Positions 7,085 to 29,379 of a stretch of 33,254 nucleotides of DNA are shown here, in pieces. A model generated the notes under the pieces. The model was not told the DNA's origin, searched no databases, and saw nothing but the letters and a program-made list of their open reading frames with translations. The stretch comes from Spirochaetota bacterium. Its GTDB lineage: Bacteria; Spirochaetota; UBA4802; UBA5550. The stretch lies in contig JAKLIV010000002.1 of the NCBI GenBank assembly GCA_022709405.1, positions 69,700 to 102,953 on the forward strand, in the 5' to 3' direction. Each line of letters opens with the position of its first letter. Position 1 is the stretch's first letter. Both the position numbers and the translations under genes were made by a program.

Positions 7085-7091
7085 ATACTTG

Positions 7092-7144: not shown

Positions 7145-7156
7145 TTCAATCTCTTA

Positions 7157-7528: not shown

Positions 7529-7550
7529 AGGAAATCTCCTTCAATTTTTT

Positions 7551-8027
7551 TCAGTGCAACGTAATTGCCCTGTCCGGGTCGATCCCGGCAGACAGGTCGT
7601 TTATGAACGAGCGAAGATAGTCATGCGCGGCGTCCAGGTTCTTCTCCGCATCCGGGCTCAACCCCTCGGCGAAATCCCAGGCATACCCCCTTATTCCCAT
7701 GAGATACGCCCGTACGTTTCTGCCGAAAAGATCCTGGCACAGCGCCAGCACCGACTGCGGCGATACGGAATGGGTCGTAAACGTGATCTCCTCCGAGGGC
7801 CCGATTTCTACGAAATCGAACGGCCCGTCGCCGGCAAGGGACGCATCCACGAAAACAACGCAGTCTGCGTCCGCTATAAAGGCGGCGTCTTCGATGTTCA
7901 GCTGGTAGTTGCTGTCCGTTTCCACGCCGGAGATCCCCGATTCCCCGATCCTCCGCGCCATGGCCGGTCCGAGGCCGTCGTCCTGACGGCCCGGATTGCC
8001 ATAGCCATATACGACTATTTTGCCCAT
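7551..8027 (-). CDS. Hydrogenase maturation protease for the HoxH large subunit
   Basis: This HybD/HycI-family nickel-dependent endopeptidase has 158 residues and starts at ATG 8027, behind GAGGAAA. The family N-terminus is Val-(x)-Gly-Tyr-Gly-Asn-Pro-Gly-Arg-Gln-Asp-Asp-Gly-Leu-Gly. The acidic residue used for Ni binding, the Val-Phe-Val-Asp-Ala strand and Thr-Thr-His-Ser match the usual Glu/Asp, Asp and His trio. The gene starts 4 bases after the hoxH stop, so its substrate is almost certainly the HoxH precursor, cut after the His of the C-terminal Cys-Ala-Thr-His. HoxW is the name used in some HoxFUYH operons; the sequence alone does not prove orthology. Confidence 0.9.
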   Translation of the reverse strand: MGKIVVYGYGNPGRQDDGLGPAMARRIGESGISGVETDSNYQLNIEDAAFIADADCVVFVDASLAGDGPFDFVEIGPSEEITFTTHSVSPQSVLALCQDLFGRNVRAYLMGIRGYAWDFAEGLSPDAEKNLDAAHDYLRSFINDLSAGIDPDRAITLH

Positions 8028-8031
8028 CACG

Positions 8032-9483: not shown

Positions 9484-9497
9484 AATTGTTATCCTCT

Positions 9498-10037
9498 TTA
9501 ATCAAACTTGACCACTTCGTACGGCAGGTTCAGCTCCTTGCCGGTCAGCAGCGCCACGAGCGCCTCCCAGATCAGGTCGGCCCTCGGCGGGCAGCCCGGC
9601 AGGTAATAGTCGATCTTCACGATCTCGTGCAGGGGATAGACCCTGTCGAGGATCATCGGGAGCTCGTCGTCGTTGGGGATGATCTTGTCATCAACCGTCG
9701 GGCAGTCAAGATACGCCTCTTTGAGGCACTCTTCGACCGGTATCCCGTTGCGCATCGCGGGAAGGCCTCCCATGATCGCGCATTCGCCGAGCGAGATGAG
9801 AATCTTGCAGTGTTTCCTGAACTCTTTGAGGTTTTCCACGTTTTCGCTGTTGCAGCACCCGCCCTCGATGATTCCGATGTCGCACTGCTTGGTGAACTTT
9901 TTGATGTCGTCCACCGGTGATTTGTTGAACTCCACCAGCTCGATGAGCTGGAGAATCCTGTCGTCGATGTCCAATATTGACATATGGCAGCCGAAACATC
10001 CCGCCAGGGAAGCCGTCGCCACTACTGGTTTACTCAT
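9498..10037 (-). CDS. hoxY: [NiFe] hydrogenase small subunit HoxY
   Basis: HoxY carries the single [4Fe-4S] cluster that links the Ni-Fe site of HoxH to the diaphorase module. It has 179 residues, as expected for the short type 3 small subunits, and no signal peptide, so it is cytoplasmic. The proximal cluster ligands are visible as Cys14-x2-Cys17, Cys86 in Leu-Gly-Glu-Cys and Cys149 in Leu-Pro-Gly-Cys-Pro-Pro. Medial and distal clusters are absent, as in other HoxY. An extra Cys pair (61-62) is present. GGAGG lies 6 bases before ATG 10037. It sits 26 bases after hoxU and 14 bases before hoxH. Confidence 0.95.
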   Translation of the reverse strand: MSKPVVATASLAGCFGCHMSILDIDDRILQLIELVEFNKSPVDDIKKFTKQCDIGIIEGGCCNSENVENLKEFRKHCKILISLGECAIMGGLPAMRNGIPVEECLKEAYLDCPTVDDKIIPNDDELPMILDRVYPLHEIVKIDYYLPGCPPRADLIWEALVALLTGKELNLPYEVVKFD

Positions 10038-10063
10038 GATTTTCCTCCATTACTATCCATCTC

Positions 10064-10762
10064 TCAATTTCCCTGAATTTCACTGCCAATGGGCTTCTGG
10101 TCGTATTTACGCTTTCCAACCGGCACGACGAACCCGACTTCTTTCTTGAGCAGGGCGCCGACCGGACAGATGTCCATTGCCTGCTGGGCCTGCTTGTCGG
10201 TCATCCCGGCCGCGAGTTCGGGATCTGCCGTGATCATCGTCCTGTCGCCCCTTTTGACCGGCCCGAAAATGTGCTTTCCGTCCTTTGTCGTGACGCCCCT
10301 GTGGCACCTGAGGCAGAGAATGCACCTGTTCCTGTCGATGTAGAGCTTCGGTATCGACGCGTCGACCTGCTTAGTCGGCCACAGATACGGGAACCGCGGA
10401 GCCATCATGAGATACCTGTATCCCAGGGCCTGCAATTCGCAGTTGCCGCTCTTCTCGCACGTCGGGCACATGTGATTTCCCTCGACGAAAAGCATTTCGA
10501 CGATAGCTTTGCGCATGTCTTCGAGCTCGGGAATGTTGTTCTGGACCACAATGTCGTTCGCGATCGGCGTCGTGCATGCGGCCATATTCCGGCCGCCGAC
10601 CCTTACGGTGCAGATCCTGCACGCCCCGGCCGGTTTCAGCCCGTCATAATGACAGAGCACCGGAATATAAACCCCGTTTTCCTTTGCGGCCTCGACGATC
10701 GTCTGGCCCTTTTTCCCGGTGCACTCTTTTCCGTCTATAGTAAAAGTGATTTTATCGCTCAT
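10064..10762 (-). CDS. hoxU: NAD-linked hydrogenase diaphorase subunit HoxU
   Basis: HoxU is the NuoG-like iron-sulphur subunit that wires HoxF to HoxY. The 232-residue protein has a plant-type [2Fe-2S] domain (Cys37, Cys48, Cys51, Cys63), a His-Cys cluster motif (Asn-His-Met-Cys-Pro-Thr-Cys-(x)5-Cys) near residues 94-105, and a C-terminal ferredoxin-like motif (Cys-Ile-Leu-Cys-Leu-Arg-Cys with a distant Cys-Pro-Val-Gly-Ala). The start is ATG 10762, which overlaps the hoxF stop by 4 bases; GGGGG lies upstream. An upstream extension would run into hoxF. The length fits HoxU and is far shorter than NuoG or HydA-type subunits. Confidence 0.94.
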   Translation of the reverse strand: MSDKITFTIDGKECTGKKGQTIVEAAKENGVYIPVLCHYDGLKPAGACRICTVRVGGRNMAACTTPIANDIVVQNNIPELEDMRKAIVEMLFVEGNHMCPTCEKSGNCELQALGYRYLMMAPRFPYLWPTKQVDASIPKLYIDRNRCILCLRCHRGVTTKDGKHIFGPVKRGDRTMITADPELAAGMTDKQAQQAMDICPVGALLKKEVGFVVPVGKRKYDQKPIGSEIQGN

Positions 10763-12576
10763 GAATGTTCCCCCAATTGCGGTTTTCTTCCGGCGTACTT
10801 GCACGAATCCTCGACCGCAGCGGCCAGGTCGAACTCGGTTGAGTACTCAACGTCTTTCTTGACTTTCGCCTCGTAGAGTTCCCGGAAGTTTTTCAGCGTG
10901 GTGTAAATCGGGTTGGGAGACGTCTGCCCCAGGCCGCACCTGCTCATGCTCTTCACGATGAGGCACCAGTCCTCGAGCTCCTTGAGATCGGCCATGGTCC
11001 CATTGCCGTGCATGATCTTTTCGAGCTTGTTCCTGAGGATGACGTTGCCCGCGCGGCAGGGAACACACCATCCGCACGATTCTTCCACGAAAAAGTCCAT
11101 GAAATTATGGACCACTTCGAGCAAGTCGGTATTGGAGCCGATCACGATAATGGAGCCGCCCGTGGCCAGGTCGTCGAAGCATATCCTTCGCCCGAAGTCC
11201 TTCTTGCCGACGCAGTTGCCCGACGGTCCGCCCACCTGAACCGCGACCGCCGGACGGCCGTCGCACTCCTCGAGAAGGGTCTGGATGGTCATTCCGAATT
11301 CGACCTCGTAGATACCGGGCTTTTTACAATCGCCCGACACGCTGAGGAGCTTTGTCCCTTTGGACTGCGCGGTCCCCATTTTCGCGTACCATTCGCCGCC
11401 CTCGAGGATAATTCTTGTCGCTGTGCAATAGGTCTCGACGTTGTTCACGATCGTCGGTTTTCCCATGTAGCCGTACTGCGCGGGAAACGGCGGCCTGTTC
11501 CGGGGCGCGCCCCTCTTGCCTTCGGCGGATTCGATGAGCGCCGACTCCTCGCCGCACACATACGCGCCCGCGCCGAGCTTGATCGATATATCGAAAGAGA
11601 ACCCTTTCTTGCCGCCGGCGTCCTTGCCGAGCATTTTCTTCTTGCGAAGTCCGGCGAGCACGTTCTCGAGATAGTCTTTCAGATAAGCGTATTCGGCCCT
11701 GAGGTACAGGATCCCTTCATCAGATCCGATGGCGTAGCCCGCCAGGGCCATTCCCTCGAAAAGCATGTGGGGCAGCTCGGTGAGTATCACCCTGTCCTTG
11801 AATGTCCCGGGTTCGCCTTCGTCGGCGTTGCAGATGACGTATTTTTTCTTCCCGGCGGCATCCCGGCAGAAAGACCATTTCATTCCTGCGGGGAATCCTG
11901 CGCCGCCTCGACCCCGAAGGTTTGACTTTTTCATTTCGTCGATGACTCCTGCCGGATTCATCGAGACCGCCTTTTTAAGGGCCGAACCGCCCTCAAACGG
12001 CGCAAAAAGCACCTGGCCTTTCTTCTGAATGTTGTTGTTCACCATGGATTTGACCAGAGCAGACTGGTTCTGGCCGTCGCCCAGGTCTTTTACCATTTTA
12101 TTAACGTCTTTCCCGGCCTTCATGGCTTCGACCAGGTCCTTCGCCTTCTCGGGCGTAAGGTTGGTGAAAACCGCGCCGTTGATGATCGCGGCCGGCTCCT
12201 GATCGTTCATGCCGATACATGACGTGTCAAAAAGCCCGATAACCCCGTCGGAGCTGACGCTGCCGAATTTGCACCTGGCCCCCTGCTCAAAGGCCTTTGC
12301 AACTGCGGCGCGCCCTTTCATCACTGCGACAGCGCTGTTATTCAGGTAAACGGAATATTTACCAACCGGCTTTTTTGAGAAAAAGTGGTAGAAAGTCACC
12401 ACACCTTCGACGTCGGTAGTGGAAATGCCGAGCTGTCTGGCAATCTGAAGAACCGCCTCGTCGGAAACGCATCCCATTGCATCCTGGACATCACGGATGA
12501 TGTCAAGAAGACAGGTAGCGTCACCGCCGTGATTCTTCACTGCCTTTTTTACAACAGTGTCTGCTTCTTTACCCAT
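10759..12576 (-). CDS. hoxF: NAD-linked hydrogenase diaphorase subunit HoxF with fused NuoE-like N-terminus
   Basis: HoxF binds FMN and NAD(H) and is the entry point for hydride. The 605-residue protein is a fusion. Residues 1-165 are NuoE/HoxE-like, and residues from about 190 are NuoF-like with Arg-Gly-Arg-Gly-Gly-Ala-Gly-Phe (221-228), Asn-Ala-Asp-Glu-Gly-Glu-Pro-Gly-Thr-Phe (250-259) and the [4Fe-4S] motif Cys501-x2-Cys504-x2-Cys507...Cys547. The size matches the ~600-residue HoxF of the Ralstonia eutropha type HoxFUYH enzyme. In the NuoE-like part the first cysteine pair is absent (Leu-Asn-Asn-Ser-Ala-Val-Ala at 78-84) and only Cys120 of the second pair is left (Cys-Ile-Gly-Met-Asn), so a normal [2Fe-2S] cluster cannot form there. 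It is the first gene of the operon; the ATG at 12576 follows GAGGG. There is no second FeS-rich C-terminal extension as in HydB of bifurcating enzymes. Confidence 0.94.
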   Translation of the reverse strand: MGKEADTVVKKAVKNHGGDATCLLDIIRDVQDAMGCVSDEAVLQIARQLGISTTDVEGVVTFYHFFSKKPVGKYSVYLNNSAVAVMKGRAAVAKAFEQGARCKFGSVSSDGVIGLFDTSCIGMNDQEPAAIINGAVFTNLTPEKAKDLVEAMKAGKDVNKMVKDLGDGQNQSALVKSMVNNNIQKKGQVLFAPFEGGSALKKAVSMNPAGVIDEMKKSNLRGRGGAGFPAGMKWSFCRDAAGKKKYVICNADEGEPGTFKDRVILTELPHMLFEGMALAGYAIGSDEGILYLRAEYAYLKDYLENVLAGLRKKKMLGKDAGGKKGFSFDISIKLGAGAYVCGEESALIESAEGKRGAPRNRPPFPAQYGYMGKPTIVNNVETYCTATRIILEGGEWYAKMGTAQSKGTKLLSVSGDCKKPGIYEVEFGMTIQTLLEECDGRPAVAVQVGGPSGNCVGKKDFGRRICFDDLATGGSIIVIGSNTDLLEVVHNFMDFFVEESCGWCVPCRAGNVILRNKLEKIMHGNGTMADLKELEDWCLIVKSMSRCGLGQTSPNPIYTTLKNFRELYEAKVKKDVEYSTEFDLAAAVEDSCKYAGRKPQLGEHS

Positions 12577-13117
12577 AATCCCTCGTTTAATTTAAGATGT
12601 TCAATCTTTTGTTTTACCTATATAAATAAATTTTTTATATAGCTCATATATATAATGCTTATAAAGCTATGAAATATTTATCAAGAAAAATAAAAATGTT
12701 ATTGAAATTTTATAGATTTTTATCATATATTATTCATATTTATTCATTATGTGTTATTATATTTATTAATAATGTTAATATATGCTATTTATTATTCTTT
12801 AAATGCTATCATTATAATAAATCATAATTTTATCCAGAATAAATTGTGAATTTATTCACTATCTTAATATTATAATAATTATAATATTCACAGTAATAAA
12901 GGACTTGAATTCTTCTGTTTGAGGAAATGAAAAAGAAGTAACAACAACCGTTCGTATGAATTTTATTAATATGTCATAATATATCAAGAAGATTTTATAT
13001 ACAAATTAAAAAAAATTAGCCTATATAATTAATTAAATATTCACGCACCATTTTATTGGTTGATATTTATCCCTTATGTGTTTTTAACTTTCTAAAACAG
13101 ATTCAATGAGGACAGCC
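12577..13117. other. Highly AT-rich divergent control region between hoxF and nikR
   Basis: No gene is visible. The 541 bases are almost all A and T, in strong contrast with both flanking genes, and must hold the promoters of hoxF (leftward) and nikR (rightward). So many TATAAT-like words occur that no single promoter can be chosen. A TATGA-N14-TCATA inverted repeat (12955-12978) resembles NikR half-sites with shorter spacing. A 15-base word around 12719-12733 recurs upstream of the other hydrogenase operon. Confidence 0.6.
12954..12979. promoter_or_regulatory. Candidate NikR-like operator
   Basis: GTATGA (12954-12959) and TCATAA (12974-12979) form an inverted repeat with five of six positions paired and a 14-base spacer. 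The E. coli NikR operator is GTATGA-N16-TCATAC, so the half-sites match but the spacing is 2 bases short. The very AT-rich setting raises the chance of coincidence. Confidence 0.3.
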
Positions 13118-13540
13118 ATGCAAAATATCGTTCGGTTCGGCGTTTCAATCGATGACAAGCTTCTTGATAAATTCGACGCACTGATAGCAAAGAAGGGATA
13201 TGTCAACCGCTCTGAAGCGATCCGCGATCTCATACGCTCGATGCTGGTCGACGAAGACATCTCCGATCCCGAGGCCGAATCGATCGGCACCCTGAGCCTC
13301 GTGTACAACCATCACGCCAGCGAGCTTGCCGACAAGCTCAACGACCTCCAGCACCACAGCTACAAGAACATCGTTTCGACGACCCATATCCACCTCGACG
13401 AGCATAACTGCCTCGAAGTGCTGATCCTCAAGGGCAAGACCCGCGAGGTAAAGGCGATCGCCGACAAGCTTTCCTCGATCAAAAACGTGAAGAACGGCCA
13501 GCTTACCCTGACCCGCGCAGAAACCGAAAAGGAAGAATAA
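13118..13540 (+). CDS. nikR: Nickel-responsive regulator NikR
   Basis: NikR is a tetrameric ribbon-helix-helix repressor that binds DNA when Ni2+ is present. The 140-residue protein has the N-terminal RHH domain (Val-Arg-Phe-Gly-Val-Ser-Ile ... Arg-Ser-Glu-Ala-Ile-Arg-Asp-Leu-Ile-Arg) and a C-terminal ACT-like domain. The high-affinity nickel site is intact: His79, His90, His92 and Cys98, in the spacing of E. coli His76, His87, His89 and Cys95. The start is ATG 13118 because GAGGA lies 5 bases before it; ATG 13106 would place this site inside the gene. It lies between two hydrogenase operons and no nickel transporter gene is near, so control of the hydrogenases is the natural inference. Confidence 0.96.
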   Translation: MQNIVRFGVSIDDKLLDKFDALIAKKGYVNRSEAIRDLIRSMLVDEDISDPEAESIGTLSLVYNHHASELADKLNDLQHHSYKNIVSTTHIHLDEHNCLEVLILKGKTREVKAIADKLSSIKNVKNGQLTLTRAETEKEE

Positions 13541-13563
13541 AAAAAGGGGGATTTTCATCCCCC
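13539..13563 (-). terminator. Intrinsic terminator for the exported-hydrogenase operon
   Basis: Read on the minus strand, a 6-bp stem (GGGGGA / TCCCCC, loop of 6) is followed by seven T residues. It lies about 110 bases past the large-subunit stop and overlaps the nikR stop codon. Confidence 0.65.
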
Positions 13564-13640
13564 CCCAACCCCCCCGAGAGGGGGCTCAGCTTCAATAATT
13601 CTGATTTTTAAAGTCCCCCTCCGGGGGATTCAGGGGGGCC
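13546..13640. repeat. G/C-tract intergenic element
   Basis: Between the converging nikR and large-subunit genes lie alternating runs of C and G (13546-13584 and 13615-13638) that can fold as several short hairpins: GGGGG/CCCCC at 13546-13563, CCCCC-GAGA-GGGGG at 13571-13584 and CCCCC-TCC-GGGGG at 13615-13627. An A/T-rich stretch of about 30 bases separates the two halves. Such elements are often dispersed repeats, but only one copy is in this window. Confidence 0.5.
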
Positions 13641-13671
13641 TCAAGCGGCCCTCCTTATTCTATCATCAAAT

Positions 13672-15240
13672 CTAACAGACCCTGAATTTTGAGATATCCC
13701 TGTCGCCTTCCATGACATGTACGGCGCAGGCGATGCACGGGTCGAAAGACCTGACCACGCGCGCGGCCTCGATCGGGTTGTTGACGTCCGATATCGGTGT
13801 GCCGATAAGGGCTTCTTCGACCGGTCCCCTGACTCCGCTGTCGTCCCTGGGGCCGCAGTACCAGGTCGTCGGAACGACCGCCTGATAGTTGGCGATCACC
13901 CTGTTCTTGACCACGATCCAGTGACCAAGGGCGCCGCGCGGGGCCTCGACGAGGCCTTCGCCCTCGCCCGATTCCGGGATGCTGTAGGTCGATCTGGGCT
14001 CTCCGCCCTTTTCAAGATCGTCGAGCATCTCGTAGGCGTGCTGCGCGAGCAGCTTGCATTCTATGACGCGTGAAGCGTGACGGCCAAGCACCGAGAACGC
14101 GGCGGGCACTTCAGCTTTGAAAATCGCCAGTATCGCATCGAGCTCCGACTTGACGGCCTGATTTCCCGACAGATACGCGATGGCGACGCGGGCCAGCGGT
14201 CCGACTTCCATGGCCTTGCCGTTATAACGCGGTGCCTTGAGCCAGGTGTATGCGCCAGGCTTGTTTGGATTCGCCACGGTCTGCCCCTGGTATGGGTGCA
14301 GGTTCGAACCTGACTGGTAGCGGGCGTACGCCACATTCTCCCTGATCAGGCCGGTATCGAGCTTCTGCACTTTTCCATCGTAGAAGGCGCCGCGCTCGAA
14401 CAGGAAGTCTTTCTGGTCTTCGTCCTTGTCCATGAGACCATAGGCCAGGAAATTGTTGAACTTGCCGAGCTTGAAGTATTCGGGAAAGGCCTTCGCGACC
14501 GCAATCACGTGGTTCGCATATACATCGTTCACGAATTCCTCGACCTCTTCGAGCAGGCTGCGATATTCGTTGATTTTTTCCCGTGTGGGGACCTGGGTCA
14601 CGCCGCCCGGAACCAGACCGATCGCATGGGGAGCCCTGCCGCCGAAAAGGGCGACCATCTTGTGCGCTTTCATGCGGATTTCAAGAGCCTTGACGTATCC
14701 GGAAATCGCCTCGATGTTGAGGTCCTGGTCTTTTATGTAGAAGTCTTTTCCTTCATAGCGGGGAAGGAACGGCGCGACCGCGGTGATCGCGTCGGCCCTG
14801 TCTTTCTTCCTGGAAAGCTCGTCCCTGGCCCAGTCTTTCAGGTTGGCCAGCTTCGGATCGCGTCCCTTGTAGCCCAGTATCGCAGTGATATCCACGAAGT
14901 CCAGGGCCGCAAGATGATAGAAATGCAGGATATGAGACTGCAGGTAGTTCGCCGCGAGCACGAGGTTCCTCAGCAGCCTTCCGTTTTTGTTCGGTTTGAT
15001 GCCGAAAGCCGCGTCAAGGCACTTGCTCGACGCAAGGCCGTGGGATATCGGGCACACGCCGCATATCCTCTGGGTGATCTGGTTGGCGTCAACCGGATTT
15101 CTTCCCAGCAGAATGTTCTCGAAACCGCGGTACATATCGCCCTTGCATTTGGCGTCAACGACCCTGCCGTTCTGGACGTCCAATTCTATTGCGAGGTGGC
15201 CCTCAATACGTGATATGGGATCAAGCAGTACTTTAGCCAT
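13672..15240 (-). CDS. Exported [NiFe] hydrogenase large subunit (group 1 type)
   Basis: This is the catalytic subunit of the exported uptake hydrogenase. The 522-residue precursor has the L1 motif Arg-Ile-Cys60-Gly-Val-Cys63-Pro-Ile-Ser-His and the L2 motif Asp-Pro-Cys502-Ile-Ala-Cys505-Ala-Val-His, followed by a 14-residue tail that is removed on maturation. The N-terminus Leu-Asp-Pro-Ile-Ser-Arg-Ile-Glu-Gly-His is typical of group 1. The start is ATG 15240: GGAGG lies 9 bases upstream, and the ATG at 15255 overlaps that ribosome site. It overlaps the small-subunit stop by 8 bases. It has no signal of its own and would be co-exported by the Tat signal of the small subunit. The Ni ligand position is Cys, not selenocysteine. 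Confidence 0.95.
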   Translation of the reverse strand: MAKVLLDPISRIEGHLAIELDVQNGRVVDAKCKGDMYRGFENILLGRNPVDANQITQRICGVCPISHGLASSKCLDAAFGIKPNKNGRLLRNLVLAANYLQSHILHFYHLAALDFVDITAILGYKGRDPKLANLKDWARDELSRKKDRADAITAVAPFLPRYEGKDFYIKDQDLNIEAISGYVKALEIRMKAHKMVALFGGRAPHAIGLVPGGVTQVPTREKINEYRSLLEEVEEFVNDVYANHVIAVAKAFPEYFKLGKFNNFLAYGLMDKDEDQKDFLFERGAFYDGKVQKLDTGLIRENVAYARYQSGSNLHPYQGQTVANPNKPGAYTWLKAPRYNGKAMEVGPLARVAIAYLSGNQAVKSELDAILAIFKAEVPAAFSVLGRHASRVIECKLLAQHAYEMLDDLEKGGEPRSTYSIPESGEGEGLVEAPRGALGHWIVVKNRVIANYQAVVPTTWYCGPRDDSGVRGPVEEALIGTPISDVNNPIEAARVVRSFDPCIACAVHVMEGDRDISKFRVC

Positions 15241-16237
15241 TGATGGCGCCTCCATTTCTGAGTTTCAATACGACTTCCCGTGTTTCGGGATGCAGACTCT
15301 TTATCTCCTGCGCGCTTGCAGTGAGATGCTTGAATATGCCGCGCTTGCCGTAATCGGGAAACACGTTCTCGGTGCATCCGATGCATCCGGCGCCGCAGGC
15401 GGTGCATGTGTTCATTCCGTCGTTCCATTTCCTGGTGGGGATATCGCACCCGCTGTCCATACCCAGGCAGCCGAGATTGTACAGGCAGCCCTCGTCGCCC
15501 CAGTGTTTGGCGAATATGCCTTCCTTGTACTCATTCAGGTGCTCGCACTGCTCGTGCACGGTCTTTCCATAATACATGACCGGCCTGTTCTGCTCGTCGA
15601 GCTTGGGAACGCCCTTGAGCAATACATGAAGCAGCGTGCCGACTATCCAGTCGGGATGCGGCGGGCACCCGCCGATATTGATGATCTGCCTGTCGGGCAG
15701 GATCGAGGCCAGCGATTTGGCCCCTGTCGGATTGTCTCCCGTGGCCCTTACTTCGGCCCCGGGAATCCCTCCGCCCGTGGCGCAGGTCCCGACAGCCACA
15801 ACGGCAATCGCGTTCTGGCCGAGCTTTTCGATCCATTCCCTGGCGCTCACATGACGGCCGTCGATTTCGCCGATCGTGCAGTACAGATCGTCCCTGGTGG
15901 GTATCGATCCCTCGACCACGAGAACGAAATCCTTCCTGTTTTTCTTGACCGCGTCTTCCAGTACGCTCACCGCAACATGTCCGGTGCCGCTCATGAGCGT
16001 CTGGTGAAAATTGAGCGAAATATGCTCGGTTATCACGCCGGCCACGTCGGGCGCCACCTTGTTCAGCAGTGAAACCGAACATCCCGAGCAGGACTGCGCC
16101 TGGATCCAGATCACGTTGGTCCTTTCAGAAACCCTCTCCAGGGCCTTTTTACAGCCCTGCAATACAACTCCCGGAAACGCCAAAGCGGCCGAGGTACCGC
16201 CCATTATTTTCAGGAATTCCCGCCTGCTTAATGACAT
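15233..16237 (-). CDS. Exported [NiFe] hydrogenase small subunit with Tat signal
   Basis: The 334-residue precursor starts at ATG 16237 behind AGGAGGA and carries a Tat signal (Ser-Arg-Arg-Glu-Phe-Leu-Lys at 4-10, then a hydrophobic stretch). The proximal cluster uses Cys50-x2-Cys53, Cys152 and Cys191, and the distal cluster His228, Cys231, Cys251 and Cys257. At the medial site Cys264, Cys278, Cys285 and Cys288 are all cysteines; Cys278 falls where Desulfovibrio gigas has proline and a [3Fe-4S] cluster, so a [4Fe-4S] cluster is likely. Gly52 lies where oxygen-tolerant enzymes have an extra Cys. The signal ends Val-Leu-Gln-Gly-Cys29, which could be a lipobox. The C-terminus has no transmembrane helix. 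Group 1 assignment is firm; the subgroup is not. Confidence 0.94.
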   Translation of the reverse strand: MSLSRREFLKIMGGTSAALAFPGVVLQGCKKALERVSERTNVIWIQAQSCSGCSVSLLNKVAPDVAGVITEHISLNFHQTLMSGTGHVAVSVLEDAVKKNRKDFVLVVEGSIPTRDDLYCTIGEIDGRHVSAREWIEKLGQNAIAVVAVGTCATGGGIPGAEVRATGDNPTGAKSLASILPDRQIINIGGCPPHPDWIVGTLLHVLLKGVPKLDEQNRPVMYYGKTVHEQCEHLNEYKEGIFAKHWGDEGCLYNLGCLGMDSGCDIPTRKWNDGMNTCTACGAGCIGCTENVFPDYGKRGIFKHLTASAQEIKSLHPETREVVLKLRNGGAING

Positions 16238-16256
16238 ATAGTCCTCCTGTTTATTT

Positions 16257-16712
16257 TTAACAGGCCGCCGCGTCGAATATTTCACGCACGGCCTTCGGTA
16301 TGGATTCACGTACGGAATCGCTGATACCTATACCAAGTGTTCCGATGTCTTCCGGCACGATCCCGATTATTTCGATTTCAGGGACCTCGCCTAATATCCT
16401 CAATGAAGCTATGACTTCTTTTATTCCAACATCATGAAGCGAAAAGGAGCCTTTTCGTTCCGACAGGTGTTCCGGCGTGAACCGGTACACCGATCCGGGC
16501 TCGTCATCGGCCCTGAGCGCGTCGACGATGATGATCTTGTCGCGTCCCTGCATCAGCGGTATGAGATCATGGCCGGCAGTGCCTCCGTCGGCCAGTTCAA
16601 CGTCCCCGGGCAATTCCATCCCGGCTTCGGCGATGTGGTTCACGATGTGCACGCCGATACCGTCGTCTTTTTGCAGAATATTGCCGATGCCCAGCACCAG
16701 AACCCTTTTCAT
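16257..16712 (-). CDS. Hydrogenase maturation protease for the exported hydrogenase
   Basis: This 151-residue HybD/HyaD-family endopeptidase has Val-Leu-Gly-Ile-Gly-Asn-Ile-Leu-Gln-Lys-Asp-Asp-Gly-Ile-Gly at the N-terminus, Ile-Ile-Val-Asp-Ala-Leu in the middle and Ser-Leu-His-Asp-Val-Gly around residue 93, the three regions that bind nickel in HybD. It removes the C-terminal tail of the large subunit after nickel insertion. Unusually the gene precedes both structural genes, with 21 bases to the cytochrome gene before it and 19 bases to the small subunit after it. It differs clearly from the hox-linked protease, so each hydrogenase has its own. Confidence 0.93.
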   Translation of the reverse strand: MKRVLVLGIGNILQKDDGIGVHIVNHIAEAGMELPGDVELADGGTAGHDLIPLMQGRDKIIIVDALRADDEPGSVYRFTPEHLSERKGSFSLHDVGIKEVIASLRILGEVPEIEIIGIVPEDIGTLGIGISDSVRESIPKAVREIFDAAAC

Positions 16713-16733
16713 CGTGGACGAGACCCCTTCACC

Positions 16734-17141
16734 TCAATGACCGGCCGCTTGCCCGGCCATATGGCATTCCATGCACTTCTGCGGGCCGTCCTTTTTCGCA
16801 ATGTGGCAGTCGAGGCACAGGCCGTGCATTCTCTCATACCCGTTGTCGCCGATATGGCATTTGGCGCAGACTTTCTCCCTTTGGGGATTGTGTTGCTTAT
16901 GGTGACACGCGGCGCAATCGAGGCCCTGTGCCGCATGGGTCTTGTGCGACATCATGACCGCGCCCACGTTCGCCTTCAGCGGCGTCACGCCGTCAGGTGC
17001 TTTTCCGAATTCGGTTATCTTGGTAATGGTCACTTTATCGGTGACCCCGTTCCCCTTTGCCCAGGGGTCCACATTGCAGCCGGCGGCCGCGAAAAGCATG
17101 GCTCCGGCAATGACGACCGGAAATAATCTTGTTACGTTCAC
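16734..17141 (-). CDS. Tetrahaem cytochrome c3-like lipoprotein
   Basis: The 135-residue precursor starts with GTG 17141, chosen by GGAGGG 5 bases upstream. A hydrophobic signal ends in Ala-Ala-Gly-Cys22, a lipobox, so the protein is probably membrane-tethered. Four Cys-x2-Cys-His motifs (76-80, 92-96, 109-113, 123-127) with further histidines (His66, His69, His81, His84) give the layout of class III cytochrome c3. It leads the operon, directly before the protease and hydrogenase genes, and is the obvious electron acceptor from the small subunit. No cytochrome b or quinone-linked anchor is present in the operon. Haem attachment will need a cytochrome c maturation system encoded elsewhere. Confidence 0.93.
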   Translation of the reverse strand: MNVTRLFPVVIAGAMLFAAAGCNVDPWAKGNGVTDKVTITKITEFGKAPDGVTPLKANVGAVMMSHKTHAAQGLDCAACHHKQHNPQREKVCAKCHIGDNGYERMHGLCLDCHIAKKDGPQKCMECHMAGQAAGH

Positions 17142-22306: not shown

Positions 22307-23053
22307 TCAGTCTTTCAGGAACCGCACGCTAAATCCTTTTATTATCAAGCGAGTGCCGTTATAGAATTCGGCAATATAACTCATCAGCGTGTAGATAAAA
22401 ATCATCAATCCCACGAGCTCGAGTATCTCCTCCATGGTCGTCCAGAACGCATAGAGATAATCCGACCTGGGGTAAAGCCCGGCCCTGGTGGCGCCGAGCA
22501 TTTCAAAGACCAGCGCCCCGGTAACATAAATCACTCCCGATATAAAAAAAAGATTCCTGTAATTCCCGGGAAGGTCTCTCAGGAAACCGATGTACGCCGC
22601 GCCGAAGATGATAAGCAGTATGCCATACGGCAAAACCCATGCGAAATAAAAAACACTCCCCTTCCCGATTTCGAGCAAATTTCTGACAGGCTCCCTGAGG
22701 CTGTCGTGTATCCTGAAATATTCGTCAAAGGCCAGAAACACGAAAATGAAGCACAGGATGAGCCACAAAACCCGATGCTTCTCATTGTACCTGAGCTTTC
22801 TTATCGAAATCACGTAAAGAAGACCGCCGCAGAACAGCAGCAAAAACGCCGAATAGAGCGTAGGAATGTTTTGTTCATGATTAAGATCAATAATCCCGAG
22901 ATAATGGTGATATCCATAATACATGAACAGATGAAAGAAATGGGCCAGAATCACCATCGCGGTAATAATACTTAGGAATAATGATACATTTTTAGGCCGT
23001 AAAAGCAATTCATGGTATTGTTTTATTTTGCGATTCATCGGCATTTCCATCAT
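22307..23053 (-). CDS. Multi-spanning membrane protein of unknown function downstream of the efflux operon
   Basis: The 248-residue protein has about seven hydrophobic segments. Polar residues inside or at the ends of helices stand out: Ala-Phe-Asp-Glu-Tyr-Phe-Arg-Ile-His-Asp-Ser near residue 110, Glu-Met-Leu-Gly-Ala-Thr near 186 and Thr-Met-Glu-Glu-Ile-Leu-Glu-Leu-Val-Gly near 208. Such buried Asp, Glu and His could bind a metal or haem or form a proton path, but no family is recognised. Starts at 23053 or at ATG 23038 are both possible; ribosome sites are weak. Two perfect palindromes lie just upstream (23073-23124), so it may be regulated separately from the tolC-like gene that ends at 23145. 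Confidence 0.8.
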   Translation of the reverse strand: MMEMPMNRKIKQYHELLLRPKNVSLFLSIITAMVILAHFFHLFMYYGYHHYLGIIDLNHEQNIPTLYSAFLLLFCGGLLYVISIRKLRYNEKHRVLWLILCFIFVFLAFDEYFRIHDSLREPVRNLLEIGKGSVFYFAWVLPYGILLIIFGAAYIGFLRDLPGNYRNLFFISGVIYVTGALVFEMLGATRAGLYPRSDYLYAFWTTMEEILELVGLMIFIYTLMSYIAEFYNGTRLIIKGFSVRFLKD

Positions 23054-23072
23054 TGTTTTCTTCGGTCAGGTC

Positions 23073-23094
23073 ATTGATTAACCGGTTAATCAAT
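23073..23094. promoter_or_regulatory. Palindromic operator candidate 1
   Basis: A perfect 22-bp palindrome with core ATTAACCGGTTAAT lies 20 bases upstream of the ATG at 23053. Its centre is 32 bp from that of a second copy, about three helical turns, which suits two dimers bound on one face of the DNA. Confidence 0.75.
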
Positions 23095-23106
23095 ATGTCA
23101 AGTGTT

Positions 23107-23124
23107 TAATTAACCGGTTAATTA
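23107..23124. promoter_or_regulatory. Palindromic operator candidate 2
   Basis: A perfect 18-bp palindrome with the same 14-bp core as the site at 23073-23094. It lies between the tolC-like stop (23145) and the membrane-protein start, so it should control that gene, which reads leftward. Confidence 0.75.
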
Positions 23125-23144: not shown

Positions 23145-24449
23145 TTACCTCCCTGTCGCCTGCATATAATAGATCTGTTTTAGACGGTAATTGACTTTGG
23201 CCTCGATAATCCCGTCTCGGGCCTCCTGTAAAACCGCCTGAGCCTCGAGCATATCGGAAAGATTGACCAGGCCGTTATAATAGCTGTCAGCGGTCACTTT
23301 CTGGTTTTCATCGGCCTGGCGCATGGAATCTTCAGCCAGGGCAACCTGCTTATAGGCGTCGTTCAGGTCCTGCCATGCCTTCTCCATCTGGAGCAAAAGG
23401 AGATCGGTTTTATCTTTAAGATTATTTTCTGCAATAGTCTTCCTGATAGATTGGCCTTTTAGCTCATACGCGCCGCCCCACCAGTCCGAGATCGGGACAC
23501 TGACCTGACCGTATAGCACGCCGTTGAATCGGTTCTTGTCATCATCGAATCCGTAATACATTGCGCTAACCCCTACCCCCACCTGAGGCAGAAATTCGCC
23601 CATCTTCATTTTTGCCTTGAGCTTCTCGGCCTCGACCGATTTTTTCAGGAGAATGTATTCAGGCCTGCCGCCGAGCGCCTGCACAGGGTCCACATACAGC
23701 GATTCAGGGTCGACATCCTGAATATCGCCGTCGAAAACGATATTCGAATCGTACGATATGCCCATGAACTGGCAGAAAGCCATTGTCGCGATCGTTTTTC
23801 CGTTTTCAAGTTTCGATTTATTGAGCAGCATTTCGCTCTTCTTTTGCCTGACTCTGAGCACGTCGTTTTTCATGACGATCCCGGCCCTGTTGGCGTCCTC
23901 TACCTGGCGCAGCAGGGCATCCAGCAATTCCCCGTATTTCGAGATCGTGACCGCCTTTCTGTTTAAGCATACGATCCGCCAGTACTGTTCCTCGGTTTTA
24001 AGAACCATATCGTTCTCGGAAAGCTTGCGCCTGAATCTGCCTGCCTCGACGCCCAGCGAAGCGAGTTGATTGCCGAAATAGATTCTTCCTCCCGCATACA
24101 CGGGCTGCACGAGATTCACGTAGCTCACGTTGCCCTTCTCGAGCATTCCGAAAGTAAGTCCGCCCGGCATCAATGCTGCGAACTGTCCCGGCAGCTCGAT
24201 CGATTTCTCCAGCAGATTTTCATTTGCGGCGAACGCGAACGCGCCGGCGCTGAGCTTAGGGAAATATTTTGCGATCGCGGAGTTTTTCAGCTTCCTGGAC
24301 TCCTCGATTTCGAGATCGCTGTTTTTCATCGCGTAGTTGTTGGCGAGCGCGAGCTTTTTGCATTCGTCCAGAGTCAGCAGGCTCTGTGAAAAGACGGAGC
24401 TCAGTGAGGTCAGAGCCAATATTGCAAAACAATATAATTTTTTTTTCAT
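23145..24449 (-). CDS. TolC-family outer membrane efflux protein
   Basis: The 434-residue precursor starts at ATG 24449 with a Lys-rich signal peptide ending near Ser-Val-Phe-Ser-Gln. The upstream extension to 24533 would overlap the RND gene and hide the signal. The mature part begins Leu-Leu-Thr-Leu-Asp-Glu-Cys-Lys-Lys-Leu-Ala-Leu-Ala-Asn-Asn, the usual first helix of the outer-membrane efflux family, and has two similar halves of long alpha-helices with a beta segment each (Val-Gln-Pro-Val-Tyr-Ala-Gly-Gly and Val-Ser-Val-Pro-Ile-Ser-Asp-Trp-Trp-Gly-Gly). It forms the trimeric outer-membrane channel of the tripartite pump encoded just upstream. Confidence 0.92.
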   Translation of the reverse strand: MKKKLYCFAILALTSLSSVFSQSLLTLDECKKLALANNYAMKNSDLEIEESRKLKNSAIAKYFPKLSAGAFAFAANENLLEKSIELPGQFAALMPGGLTFGMLEKGNVSYVNLVQPVYAGGRIYFGNQLASLGVEAGRFRRKLSENDMVLKTEEQYWRIVCLNRKAVTISKYGELLDALLRQVEDANRAGIVMKNDVLRVRQKKSEMLLNKSKLENGKTIATMAFCQFMGISYDSNIVFDGDIQDVDPESLYVDPVQALGGRPEYILLKKSVEAEKLKAKMKMGEFLPQVGVGVSAMYYGFDDDKNRFNGVLYGQVSVPISDWWGGAYELKGQSIRKTIAENNLKDKTDLLLLQMEKAWQDLNDAYKQVALAEDSMRQADENQKVTADSYYNGLVNLSDMLEAQAVLQEARDGIIEAKVNYRLKQIYYMQATGR

Positions 24450-24529
24450 AATTATAATCTCTCTCTTGAAATACCAGGTCGCAGGAGATATCCGTCCAAC
24501 GATATGACGGGAGGATACCTCGCAGTAAC

Positions 24530-27500
24530 TCATTCCGGCTGAAGAACATCATCCGATTTATGGATATACATATAAAGCACCGGCAGAACATACAGTGTCA
24601 GGACCATGGAAAACAGCATTCCGAAGCAGATAACGGCCCCGAGCGGACCCCACAACGGCGAGCGGCTCATCATCATGGGAACGACTCCCACTGCGGCCGC
24701 CGCCGACGTGAGAAATATCGGGCGCATCCTTCTTTTGCCGGCCAGAAGAGCGGCCTCCCTGACCGTCATATTATGCCGGCTGATGAGTGATTCCCCATAA
24801 TCAACGAGAATGATGCCGTTTCTGACAACGATACCGCTGAGGCTTATCAGCCCGAGAAAAGAGGTGAAACCGAATGGATACCCGGCAACCAGAAGCCCAG
24901 TCACGGCACCCAGGACACAGAGCGGCATGGTGGTCAGGATCAGTAACGATAATTTCATTTTTTTAAACTGAAAAAGAAGGATCACGAACATGACTATAAC
25001 ACCGGTCAGCAGCGAGTATGCCAATCTGGGATAATTTTCCCGTTCGCCTTCGTAATCCCCGCCATACTCGAGATTCACCCCGGCCGGCAAATCCAGCTTT
25101 TCAATTTCCGGCACAATTTTTTCCAGTATATCCGAGGCGTTTCTGCCGATGTGCACCTCTCCCTTGACGGTAAGAGTCCGCACGCCGTTGCGCCTGACGA
25201 TTTGGCCCTCGGTCCATTCAGGGCGGATTTCTGCAACCTGCCGCAGGGGGATGTTGGTGAAGGCCATCGGAGCGGATACATACTGGTTGAGGATATTCTG
25301 GTATTTTGGTTTTCCCTTCCTGTCGGTTCGAAGGACGATATCGACCCGGTGATCCCCCTCCCATACTGTCGACAGAGGCAGCCCCTTGAAGCCGGCTGCC
25401 AGTGAATAGGCGAGGAAGGTCTTGGTCAATCCAAGCCGGTTCAGATCGTCTTTCCTTACATCCACCAGGACTCCCTGCAGCGGTTGTTCGTAATCATCGT
25501 GCACCCATCTGAAGCCGTCCACTTTATTCATAATGCCGGAAATCGATGCGCCGACCTTTTTCAAATCCTCGACATTATCACCGGATATTCTCACCTCGAT
25601 CGGCGAAGAAGAGAGACTGATTTCAAGCTGTTTCCATTTAACGTATGCGCCGGGAATGAAATTTCCGTATTTTTTGTCGTACTCCCTCAATATCTCCTCG
25701 GTAGCCTCATTCGAGATCGTGTTCACGATGAACTGTGCATAGTTCTTCGAAGGCATATTCGGCGCGTAGACCGTGTGAAAGCGCGGTGATCCGGTGCCAA
25801 CGAACGACGCCACTGTCACCACCCGTTTGTCTTTTTTCAACAGGTCCTCAATCCGGAGCACGGCCTTCTCCGTTTCATCAATCGAACCGCCGACCGGCAT
25901 GTACACCTCTATCGCAAACTGGTTCCGGGTCACCTTGGGAAACAGCTCACGTGAGATAGAAACAGCGAGCAGCAACCCTGCAATAACCGAAATAATTCCG
26001 ATCGCAATCGTGGTTTTCGGCGTGTTGAATGCCTGCTTGAGTGTCCCATCATAAACAGTCTGCATCCGATCCAGGAACGAACGCCGGTTTTCTGCAGAGT
26101 CATGCTTCAGCCCTTTCCTGATCAGGGTATAATTCATCATGGGGACAATGAAGACCGCGACGATCAACGATACCATGAGAGTAACCGCAACGGTAATTGA
26201 AAATGTCTTGAACATATCCTTTGCCAGACCTGTCATAAAAAACACGAGAGGAAGAAATGCTGCTATTATCGAAAGTGTTGCTGTCAATACAGGGACAAAC
26301 AACTCTGACGCGCTTTTTCGTGCCGCATCCCATGGATTCAGGCCCTGGTCGAGCTTTTCTACATGGTTGTCTATGATGACTATGGAATTGTCCACGACCA
26401 TGCCGAGCACCACGATAAGCGCCGCCAGTGAAACCGTATGCAGCTCGACATTCATCAAATGCAGGATACCAAGGGTAATCAGAATCGAGAGGGGTATCGT
26501 AACTGCGGCTATGCCGGCGATCCTTTTCGGGAGCAGCACCATCGTTACAAGGATGACTGCGACAATGGCGACAAAAAACTCAATCAGGAACTCGGTTATT
26601 GACTTGTCCACGACCCTCGGCATGTCGGCGATTTTACCGACTTTGACGTCAGAGGGCATGCTATTCGAAAAACCGGCCAGGACCCGGTCAACGTCTTTCC
26701 CGAAGTTGACGATGTTGTTACCGTAATGCATTTCAAGCGACAGCAAAAGGCTTTTATTTCCGTTGACCCTGATAAATGAATCCGGGTCAGCGTATTCGCG
26801 CCTGATTTCGGCTACGTCCCTGAGCCTGATTATGTTTCCGAGCGGGTCGGCATATACGATCTGCCGGGCTATGTCCTCTTCGGTGTTGTATCGCGGCGGC
26901 ACATGGATCGGCATGATCAGTTTACCGGTATCAAGCTCGCCGGCATAAGTCACCGATCCCTCTGTCTTCAGGGCAGCAAGAAGCGACAGGGGTTTTATCC
27001 CGTACGATGCGAGTTTCGAATCATCGATATAAATGCCGATCTGTTCTCTCTGGAGTCCGAACTCGCGTATATTCGATACGGCTTCGATCTTTCTCAACTC
27101 GATCTCAAGGCTTTTCATATATTCCTCGAGTTCCTTGTATGAGCGGACATCAGAGCTTATTGTGAGCAGAATAGCCGATGTGTCGCCGAAATCGCTGTTC
27201 GCCGCCAGCGCGATCACTTCGGGCGGGAGCTGCTGCTTGAGCTCGTTCAGTCCATGACGGAGCTTGACCCAGAACGCATCGGTCCGCGTACGGTCGATAT
27301 CATCAACCACCTCGACGAACACGATCATTATGCCTTCCCTTGAAATCGAATAGGTCTTCCTCCGGTTGACCTCCTTGAAACTGAACAGATATTCTTCGAC
27401 CTTTGATGTGAGCTGAGACTCGACCTGTCCCGATGACGCACCTGGGAAGAACCCGATCACCAGACCCTGACGGATGGTGAATTCAGGAAACTCCTGCCGC

Positions 27501-27610
27501 GGCATTTCAAACAGCGAATACAGGCCGAACAGGAGCAGCATGCTGATTATGAACAGCGTGATCTGTTTATTTTTTATTGCCCATACAATAGGATTTATCT
27601 TCTCTTTCAT
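24530..27610 (-). CDS. RND-family efflux permease (inner-membrane pump)
   Basis: The 1026-residue protein is full length for an AcrB-like pump: a helix at 17-35, a large periplasmic loop, a block of helices from about 340, a second loop and a second helix block. Conserved words include Pro-Arg-Gln-Glu-Phe-Pro-Glu-Phe, Gly-Ala-Ser-Ser-Gly-Gln-Val-Glu, and Gly-Met-Val-Val-Asp407-Asn408-Ser-Ile-Val-Ile. The last aligns with AcrB Asp407-Asp408, so the second proton-relay acid is Asn here, as in many related pumps. It takes a proton gradient to drive export of hydrophobic or toxic compounds; the substrate cannot be read. It lies between the adaptor (68 bases upstream) and the tolC-like gene. Confidence 0.95.
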   Translation of the reverse strand: MKEKINPIVWAIKNKQITLFIISMLLLFGLYSLFEMPRQEFPEFTIRQGLVIGFFPGASSGQVESQLTSKVEEYLFSFKEVNRRKTYSISREGIMIVFVEVVDDIDRTRTDAFWVKLRHGLNELKQQLPPEVIALAANSDFGDTSAILLTISSDVRSYKELEEYMKSLEIELRKIEAVSNIREFGLQREQIGIYIDDSKLASYGIKPLSLLAALKTEGSVTYAGELDTGKLIMPIHVPPRYNTEEDIARQIVYADPLGNIIRLRDVAEIRREYADPDSFIRVNGNKSLLLSLEMHYGNNIVNFGKDVDRVLAGFSNSMPSDVKVGKIADMPRVVDKSITEFLIEFFVAIVAVILVTMVLLPKRIAGIAAVTIPLSILITLGILHLMNVELHTVSLAALIVVLGMVVDNSIVIIDNHVEKLDQGLNPWDAARKSASELFVPVLTATLSIIAAFLPLVFFMTGLAKDMFKTFSITVAVTLMVSLIVAVFIVPMMNYTLIRKGLKHDSAENRRSFLDRMQTVYDGTLKQAFNTPKTTIAIGIISVIAGLLLAVSISRELFPKVTRNQFAIEVYMPVGGSIDETEKAVLRIEDLLKKDKRVVTVASFVGTGSPRFHTVYAPNMPSKNYAQFIVNTISNEATEEILREYDKKYGNFIPGAYVKWKQLEISLSSSPIEVRISGDNVEDLKKVGASISGIMNKVDGFRWVHDDYEQPLQGVLVDVRKDDLNRLGLTKTFLAYSLAAGFKGLPLSTVWEGDHRVDIVLRTDRKGKPKYQNILNQYVSAPMAFTNIPLRQVAEIRPEWTEGQIVRRNGVRTLTVKGEVHIGRNASDILEKIVPEIEKLDLPAGVNLEYGGDYEGERENYPRLAYSLLTGVIVMFVILLFQFKKMKLSLLILTTMPLCVLGAVTGLLVAGYPFGFTSFLGLISLSGIVVRNGIILVDYGESLISRHNMTVREAALLAGKRRMRPIFLTSAAAAVGVVPMMMSRSPLWGPLGAVICFGMLFSMVLTLYVLPVLYMYIHKSDDVLQPE

Positions 27611-27678: not shown

Positions 27679-28728
27679 TTAGTCCTTCACAATTCGTATA
27701 TCCGATCGTTCAGTCAATTTGTGCTGGCCCGAGACTACTATATAATCATGAAGTTTAATGCCGCCGCTAACCGCGATGCCGCTACCCGAAAGACCGCAGA
27801 TTTCCACATGCTGTTTCACCGCTTCCTCATTGATCATATTGACCTTGTAGACATAGGCTTTTCCATCTTCATCCATGAGGACCGATTCGCTCGGAATGAC
27901 CACCGCTGAGCGCCGGTGCTTTTTACGCATAACCGCATTGCACAGCATGCCTGGCTTCAGCCTGCCGTCCCGGTTCGATATTCTTACCTTTGCTTTATAA
28001 GTATGGGAAAGCATATCGGCGACGACGCCAATCTCATGGACCGCGCCCGTATATTTTGCGTTATTAAGGGCGGGTACTGTCACGGTGACAGATTCTCCCT
28101 TCTGAATGTCCCCGATTTCATTCTCGGGAACGGCGATCTTCGCGTATACGGAATCTATTATCACTATCGTTATCGCCGACAATCCCGGCACCGTATTCAT
28201 TCCCGGTTCGATCCCGCGCTTCCCGACAATCCCGTCCTCAATGGCGTACAGACTGCAGTCGTCAGCATTCTCCTTCGCAATGGCGGCTGCGGCCCTTGCT
28301 TTCTCCATGCCTGTCTCCACCTCTACAAGCTTGATCTCAGGAAGATTCCCGTTGTCGTAAATGGTCTTTAGCCGCCGGTATGCGTCCTCCGCCTGTTTCT
28401 GTGTCGCCAGAGCCATATTATAGGCATTCAGGAAGCTTTCGTTGTTCAGGGTAGCCAGGAGCTGTCCTTTCCTTACGCGGTCCCCCTCGTTTACCAGCAC
28501 GTCACGCACAGTTCCAACCGTTGAGAAACTCATCGGGATCGATTTCGATTCTTCAATGGTGCCGCAATAGGCGAGTTCGCGTACACTGTCGGTATGTGTT
28601 ACTTCCTGGACTTTCACCGGAATCGGCCCGGCGCCATCATGCTGGCCGGCCGGCCTGCTGCACCCGGTTGTCAACGCCAAAACAATAATGGCTGCGGTTA
28701 TGGTTATTTTATGAGTATTGCTTTTCAT
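27679..28728 (-). CDS. RND efflux periplasmic adaptor (membrane fusion) lipoprotein
   Basis: The 349-residue product starts at ATG 28728, with GAGGA five bases before it; the TTG at 28740 would include that site. The signal ends Leu-Thr-Thr-Gly-Cys23, a lipobox. The mature protein has the adaptor plan: Val-(x)n-Gly-Thr-Ile-Glu, a lipoyl half (Val-Gly-Thr-Val-Arg-Asp-Val-Leu-Val-Asn-Glu-Gly-Asp-Arg-Val-Arg-Lys-Gly-Gln-Leu-Leu, given here as separate residues), a helical hairpin, the second lipoyl half (Ala-Ile-Glu-Asp-Gly-Ile-Val-Gly), a beta-barrel and a membrane-proximal part with Val-Ile-Pro-Ser-Glu-Ser-Val. It bridges the RND pump and the TolC-like channel. Confidence 0.93.
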   Translation of the reverse strand: MKSNTHKITITAAIIVLALTTGCSRPAGQHDGAGPIPVKVQEVTHTDSVRELAYCGTIEESKSIPMSFSTVGTVRDVLVNEGDRVRKGQLLATLNNESFLNAYNMALATQKQAEDAYRRLKTIYDNGNLPEIKLVEVETGMEKARAAAAIAKENADDCSLYAIEDGIVGKRGIEPGMNTVPGLSAITIVIIDSVYAKIAVPENEIGDIQKGESVTVTVPALNNAKYTGAVHEIGVVADMLSHTYKAKVRISNRDGRLKPGMLCNAVMRKKHRRSAVVIPSESVLMDEDGKAYVYKVNMINEEAVKQHVEICGLSGSGIAVSGGIKLHDYIVVSGQHKLTERSDIRIVKD

Positions 28729-28764
28729 GTTCTTCCTCAATACGTTTAGAATATTAACGTTTTA

Positions 28765-28781
28765 TGGTCGAATTATGACCA
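28765..28781. promoter_or_regulatory. Candidate TetR operator before the adaptor gene
   Basis: TGGTC-N7-GACCA is a perfect 5-bp inverted repeat between the tetR stop and the adaptor start. On the minus strand it reads TTTGGTC, the same seven bases that lie in the tetR promoter at 29411-29417. Confidence 0.45.
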
Positions 28782-28788
28782 AAAAAAA

Positions 28789-29379
28789 TCATTTTCTTAT
28801 GCCTCTCAAAAAAATCTCTATAAGAAGGTCCAGTTTGTCGGTTGCCATGATTTTCTTTTCCAGGAACAGATCCATATGCAGGCCCCGGATAGCGCTGACT
28901 ACGATTGAAGACATGGTAAGAACGTCCTTTGGGCTATAGTGGATGAATTCATTGTTTTTTATTCCGTAAGAAAGAATATCATTTATCATTTCGATCTCTT
29001 GCGTGTCAAGACTGGTGCGAATCTGATTGATTACCTGATTGTTCCCGACAAGTTCCCCCCGAACTATTTCATAAAGGCTGGACGTATTCTTCAACTCTTC
29101 AAAAATTGTCAGCAGATATACTTTCAATTTCTCCTGGGCCGTCTTTTTATTGTCGACCTGGTCTTTCGCTTTCCGTATCAATGATTCAATCAATCGTGCC
29201 GCGAAATCCATGAAGATATCTTCTTTGCTCTTGTAATAATAATAAATGGTGCTCTTCCCCTTTCCTGCCGCTTTCGCGATGTCTTCCATGGTGGTCTTGT
29301 TCAGGCCCCATTTCTGAAAAAGAATTCCGGCCGCGTCGAGGATGGCCTCCCTGATTATATTGTCCTTTTCTTCGTTCAT
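28789..29379 (-). CDS. TetR-family transcriptional regulator of the RND operon
   Basis: The 196-residue protein has an N-terminal helix-turn-helix typical of TetR/AcrR: Ile-Leu-Asp-Ala-Ala-(x)2-Leu-Phe, Thr-Thr-Met-Glu-Asp-Ile-Ala-Lys-Ala-Ala-Gly and Gly-Lys-Ser-Thr-Ile-Tyr-Tyr-Tyr-Tyr-Lys-Ser-Lys-Glu-Asp (about 12-55), followed by a helical ligand domain. It is the first gene before the adaptor, pump and channel genes in the same direction, so it is most likely their ligand-released repressor. Inverted repeats in its own promoter suggest autoregulation. No Shine-Dalgarno site stands out before ATG 29379. Confidence 0.93.
   Translation of the reverse strand: MNEEKDNIIREAILDAAGILFQKWGLNKTTMEDIAKAAGKGKSTIYYYYKSKEDIFMDFAARLIESLIRKAKDQVDNKKTAQEKLKVYLLTIFEELKNTSSLYEIVRGELVGNNQVINQIRTSLDTQEIEMINDILSYGIKNNEFIHYSPKDVLTMSSIVVSAIRGLHMDLFLEKKIMATDKLDLLIEIFLRGIRK

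Follow-up and report, generated by a model that had tools for sequence, protein, structure and literature searches.

AcrR, MtrR, TtgR, and NalD belong to the TetR family and repress RND pumps through a palindromic operator in the efflux promoter. QacR is a TetR regulator that binds as two dimers. For HlyIIR of Bacillus cereus, excerpts of two reports describe a 44-bp perfect inverted repeat bound by two dimers (PMC3566180, PMC1828608), and an excerpt of a third describes CprB as a dimer of dimers on opposite sides of a 22-bp site (PMC4150764). We analyzed a 33,254-nucleotide stretch of DNA from a Spirochaetota bacterium (here called the window) that carries two perfect palindromes in front of a gene for an uncharacterized membrane protein. 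Judging from the sequence, these palindromes probably form the tandem operator of a dimeric repressor of the TetR family whose gene lies in another part of the genome. In contrast to AcrR, MtrR, TtgR, and NalD, the predicted regulator is not linked to its presumed target. An operator pair of the TetR type beside efflux genes would be fairly ordinary biology; what is unusual is a predicted shift in operator layout between lineages.

The genes around the sites are arranged on the minus strand in the order TetR regulator (28789 to 29379; PF00440), RND periplasmic adaptor (27679 to 28740; PF16576, and TIGR01730 above its cutoff), RND permease (24530 to 27610; NCBIfam RND models, below curated cutoffs), and TolC-type outer membrane efflux protein (23145 to 24533; PF02321), the last gene of the RND operon. 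After 91 bp that hold both sites comes the presumed target gene (22307 to 23053, minus strand), which encodes a 248-amino-acid membrane protein with about six hydrophobic segments and may start at an in-frame ATG at 23050, 23044, or 23038. Site 1 is a perfect 22-bp palindrome, ATTGATTAACCGGTTAATCAAT, at positions 23073 to 23094, with its dyad between 23083 and 23084. Site 2 is a perfect 18-bp palindrome, TAATTAACCGGTTAATTA, at positions 23107 to 23124, with its dyad between 23115 and 23116. Common to both is ATTAACCGGTTAAT, and the dyads lie 32 bp apart. An earlier, sequence-only reading of this DNA had reported two perfect palindromes of these lengths with a common core and this distance between centers, and its positions were exact. 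The two sites flank an exact minus-strand TTGACA (23096 to 23101), the likely −35 element of the predicted membrane-protein promoter, so that site 1 sits just downstream of it (18 bp from its first base to the dyad) and site 2 upstream. We saw no good −10 hexamer for this promoter, and a consensus promoter scan lists none here.

Sites 1 and 2 are the two longest perfect palindromes in the window, the next longest being 14 bp, and they are its sole matches to the 14-bp core when up to three mismatches are allowed (2 found, 1.07 expected). A single long palindrome is by itself not very rare: shuffling the whole window gave one of at least 18 bp in 14 of 100 cases and one of at least 22 bp in 2 of 100. 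When the 300 bp surrounding the sites, which are AT-rich, were shuffled 5,000 times, no shuffle contained two palindromes of at least 16 bp. Sites 1 and 2 are the only occurrences of the 12-bp core TTAACCGGTTAA in the genome (4.38 Mb, 94% complete), and its confinement to this place rules out a dispersed repeat.

The sequence-only reading had taken the 32-bp spacing, three helical turns, as a sign of cooperative dimers. The spacing stands, but the cooperativity does not follow from it, because the sites sit in a plus-strand direct repeat that this reading had missed, whose period of 32 bp offers a second possible cause for the three-turn spacing. The first 26-nucleotide unit (23065 to 23090) holds the core of site 1, and the second (23097 to 23122), which is 85% identical and starts 32 bp further on, holds the core of site 2. 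The spacing could therefore be a duplication period instead of selected helical phasing. The stronger form of this idea, which the repeat itself favors, is that a 32-bp unit was duplicated in tandem to give the pair and that only one of the sites is functional, but we consider it unlikely. The flank differences between the copies are mostly symmetric within each site (GATTAA...TTAATC and AATTAA...TTAATT), as if each had been kept palindromic, both sites fit the motif described below, and an RND gene of a relative (G008) is also preceded by a tandem pair, with the sites 17 bp apart (L160).

We also considered that the palindromes might act as RNA, forming a hairpin or a terminator after the efflux operon and ahead of the membrane-protein gene. 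The transcript folds with −24.9 kcal/mol (z of −3.9, with 0 of 200 shuffles as good), the copies pairing with each other, but two palindromes that share a core fold well regardless. No stem followed by a U-tract was found at the window sites, and a terminator scan gives only a small, separate stem at 23155 to 23138. Single palindromes of the same kind precede pump and TetR genes elsewhere, mostly behind TTGACA, and we regard an RNA element as very improbable.

The TetR gene at 28789 to 29379 is the nearest regulator gene found, but its product is highly improbable as the protein that binds the palindromes. Its region has a different dyad, GGTC-N7-GACC, which we read from the sequence at 28766 to 28780 before the adaptor gene and presume to be the local TetR site, and not TTAACC halves. 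Its own promoter carries no TTAAC palindrome, and the protein falls outside the TetR subfamily associated with the palindromes, with only 15 to 22% identity to its members. The claim in the earlier reading that the sites look unlike those of the local TetR was thus borne out.

Operators of the LacI family provide a further comparison, since identical core pairs are found near LacI genes in other phyla. Pairs of TTAACCGGTTAA 31 to 32 bp apart adjoin LacI genes in Firmicutes, and 2 of 13 core-pair loci (L005 and L012; 84,980 species scanned, pair at 10 to 30 bp) have a LacI gene near them. However, the genome under study, at 94% completeness, has no match to PF00356, while 9 of 14 control genomes do. 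A LacI operator is contradicted by the lack of a LacI gene in this genome, and we give this reading almost no weight.

For the reading that we prefer, an operator of an unlinked TetR, the first evidence from outside the window is a third site. The pattern TTAACNNGTTAA occurs at three places in this genome, namely, the two window sites and one intergenic place on contig C24, which precedes the gene for an orphan RND permease by 136 bp. Among related TetRs, such sites come in two layouts, TTAAC-N2-GTTAA (N2) and TTAACC-N4-GGTTAA (N4). We compared 23 orphan RND homologs with a gene start, taken from 26 loci (L089, L090, and L092 were left out because the gene start is absent). An exact N2 or N4 palindrome stands upstream in 9 of the 14 from the same family and in 0 of the 9 from other families. 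Three of those nine are N2 sites (this genome, G005, and G008), and six are N4 sites, all from one genus. At the G005 gene, the identical core lies within a 34-bp perfect palindrome. Weak sites before the orphan RND gene in G002, G009, G014, and G020 fit TTAATT-N4-GATTAA by eye. The putative tandem operator at L160 (G008:C114; 3867 to 3920), which stands before an RND gene and behind TTGACA, comprises three sites at 17-bp intervals, of which the first two are exact N2 sites and the last is partial.

With a motif matrix based on 12 N2 sites, all from other genomes, we scored 264 kb of DNA from this genome, partly overlapping. The three highest scores were 35.3 at window site 2, 29.7 at window site 1, and 26.7 at the C24 site, and the next place scored 17.7. 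The N2 sites in the motif had been located either by the core itself or by their position next to the orphan RND gene, so that this ranking is partly circular, and the flanks alone make the independent test. On flanks alone, sites 2 and 1 scored 12.0 and 6.6 and the C24 site scored 4.3; 21 of 22 other core matches scored −4.9 or less. Random 22-mers reached 12.0 in 3 of 17,880 cases and 6.6 in 14 of 17,880. The same motif is therefore found at further genes of the predicted regulon across several species, both at the orphan RND gene and in the flank-only test. The one remaining core match, with a flank score of 9.6, is an extended N2 site in G014 (L163:3995, contig C21) upstream of a gene for a sulfatase-domain protein; it fits the motif and may mark a further regulon member.

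Of 21 listed dyads, 18 have an exact TTGACA on the gene strand no more than 60 bases upstream, and in 14 of these it is 27 to 34 bases away; the 21 include both window sites, of which site 2 has no TTGACA upstream, and the one unproven sulfatase site. The same test at random positions in this genome gave 179 hits in 13,110.

Scans of 20 family genomes gave different results for the two layouts. With 65 sites against 77 for the reversed control, the bare pattern TTAACNNGTTAA shows no enrichment in the family; TTAACC-N4-GGTTAA gave 26 against 9. We followed 20 N2 loci with a CCGG, CCAG, or CTGG center and fetched 20 N4 sites beyond those already seen at the orphan RND gene, counting all 26. Seven of the 20 N2 loci lie before a TetR gene of one subfamily, 2 lie before an RND gene, and 11 lie before neither. 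Of the N4 sites, 7 of 26 lie before a TetR gene of the same group, 6 before the orphan RND gene, and 13 before neither. The lack of enrichment of the bare pattern and the loci with neither gene downstream speak against the operator reading. The TetR-associated sites of both layouts are within about 50 bp of the TetR gene start or just inside its frame. In seven relatives, the N2 layout stands at the promoter of the TetR gene itself, whereas the subfamily member of the genome under study has the N4 layout there (L140:4051).

These results make the second, unlinked regulator proposed by the sequence-only reading likely, since the same motif precedes other pump genes and an unlinked TetR subfamily, and the operator pair itself is very probably what that reading took it to be, as predicted from the sequence. 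The check it had suggested, a search for core copies near promoters and for a regulator gene flanked by the core, succeeded in relatives. In the genome under study, the center of the third copy is changed, and the site of the candidate regulator is spaced differently.

A few matches in these scans looked like something other than TetR operators. Two N4-centered copies of one element in this genome (G000:C1:22158 and G000:C201:7461; L138:4059 and L139:4062), which account for two of the 13 N4 sites before neither gene, have similar flanks in opposite orientation and look like a dispersed repeat, not an operator. In G014 and G016, of one genus, the core TTAACCGGTTAA lies upstream of a type III glutamine synthetase gene (L162:4064 and L166:3993; domain call made for G014). 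Its flanks do not fit the TetR motif, and a different regulator may share this core. In the genome under study, two places with a one-mismatch core, G000:C15:1791 and G000:C166:3924, are near-identical in sequence, one of them within a 196-amino-acid frame that resembles a small transposase by eye. This looks like a duplicated element, with the core there by chance.

The TetRs of the subfamily are 239 to 280 amino acids long, with one outlier of 224, and have GARM in common, as well as an unusual helix, (V/A)N(K/Q)AL(I/L)HY(Y/H). The next gene belongs to one cluster in 11 of the 13 TetR loci compared; where tested (L178 and L168), it encodes an outer membrane efflux protein (OMF), and an RND gene follows in the operons at L178, L164, and L165. 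The genome under study carries such a TetR-OMF-RND operon on contig C291, with the TetR gene at L178:9411-10205 and the N4 site directly behind TTGACA. The C291 TetR was the one clear subfamily member in the 919 kb of this genome that we read (21%). Other candidates were rejected, among them the TetR at G000:C33 and the TetR at L225:8774-9391, which has another motif upstream. A near-match search of this genome for the regulator gave seven 12-mer sites with one mismatch and two symmetric ones with two, none before a subfamily TetR gene. The same was true of 16 further regions with 14-mer or 12-mer sites at two or three mismatches, 13 of which lie inside a frame of at least 150 amino acids.

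Among solved chains, the best match to the TetR profile was HlyIIR (E values of 5e-24 to 2e-23), and AcrR, MtrR, TtgR, and NalD were matched as well. AcrR and MtrR were also among its NCBIfam matches, which were far below curated cutoffs and mostly confined to the DNA-binding domain. Among the papers searched, none contained the 12-mer core, whereas six contained the inner 10-mer and four a related string; judging by their titles, none of these ten concerned bacterial gene regulation. HlyIIR differs in size, with chains of 186 to 202 amino acids against 239 to 280, and in its target, which is a neighboring gene for a pore-forming protein and not a pump. Its inverted repeat, as the excerpts describe it, is reminiscent in length of the AT-rich, very long palindromes that the N2 group has in G005, G008, and G013 (more than 30 bp with few mismatches, against 22 and 18 bp in the window).

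On the TetR tree, the N2 and N4 labels fall on the two sides of one branch (one change, support of 71/81, 92% of bootstrap trees). Six N4 TetRs have the recognition helix VNKALIHYY(F/Y), six N2 TetRs have VNQALLHYH(F/Y), and the N2 TetR of G002 has ANQALIHYYF. Since a helix-turn-helix dimer needs half-sites about one turn apart, we infer that the N2 site is read as AATTAA-CCGG-TTAATT and the N4 site as TTAACC-N4-GGTTAA, so that each half-site is displaced by 2 bp. In its extended form, the N2 palindrome would then also hold two overlapping, half-matched N4 frames with a 4-bp offset (TTAATT-AACC-GGTTAA and its mirror). The likeness to QacR and CprB would lie in this feature, one extended palindrome readable as two overlapping, offset sites, with the 4-bp offset here a prediction. 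With an N4 matrix, the C291 site scored 23.8, window site 2 scored 13.9, and site 1 scored 4.8 at best; chance places reach about 12.

The C291 site is of the N4 kind and the window sites are of the N2 kind, and either the C291 TetR reads both layouts or the genome has a second member of the subfamily. The second branch of our best explanation, in which an N2-reading TetR with a VNQALLHYHF-type helix is the regulator and the C291 TetR serves its own N4 site only, is plausible, though we would rate it somewhat short of an even chance. It agrees with the single change that divides the two types on the tree, with the consistent difference in the helix (VNKALIHYYF or similar versus VNQALLHYHF), and with the N4 character of the C291 TetR. 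Against it, every N2-type TetR found has an N2 site at its own promoter, although these TetRs were found by that site; in this genome, no subfamily TetR gene follows any of the three N2 sites, and no second close member appeared within the 919 kb read. More tentatively still, and with some doubt, we suggest that an orthologous TetR switched its operator layout between sister lineages together with the change in the helix (K to Q and IHYYF to LHYHF). The genome under study would then stand in between, its regulator using N4 at home and N2 at distant targets via two overlapping, half-matched N4 sites.

Returning to the tandem operator as a whole, we infer that its repressor is the TetR at G000:C291 or a close paralog. 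Such a repressor, from the subfamily that heads the TetR-OMF-RND operon, would also act on the orphan RND pump gene. Bound to site 1, just downstream of the −35 element, and to site 2, just upstream, it would keep RNA polymerase off the promoter. A ligand, perhaps a pump substrate or similar molecule, would release the promoter, and the membrane protein would then be made together with the efflux pumps. The sequence-based support for this model consists of the palindromes, the TTGACA between them, and the recurrence of the extended motif ahead of pump genes and TetR genes within the same bacterial family. It would place an uncharacterized membrane protein in a predicted efflux regulon that consists of the TetR-OMF-RND operon, the orphan RND pump, and the membrane-protein gene. 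The two layouts, split along the TetR tree with a change in the recognition helix, may represent a small natural experiment on repressor-operator co-change, with the genome under study as a putative intermediate.

The membrane protein (22307 to 23053) matches no Pfam or NCBIfam family. Its homologs are found in 6 of 392 genomes of the phylum, this one included, and in 7 plasmid records. The other 19 genomes of the bacterial family yielded no homolog, and such a palindrome is absent beside the G033 homolog, so that the pairing of site and gene has no evolutionary footprint. Likewise, AACCGGTT is absent from the homolog loci L004 and L019 to L022. A single-sequence structure prediction was poor (pLDDT of 56.9), and we found no relative with a solved structure. 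The protein appears to represent an unnamed six-helix family with scattered relatives (G033 and plasmids of Deinococcus and alphaproteobacteria), and the G033 homolog adjoins a gene that by eye resembles a polyketide synthase gene. Elsewhere in the window, positions 4714 to 17141 form a hydrogenase region with HypD, a hydrogenase maturation protease, two NiFe hydrogenase sets, a NikR-like regulator, and a cytochrome c3-like gene.
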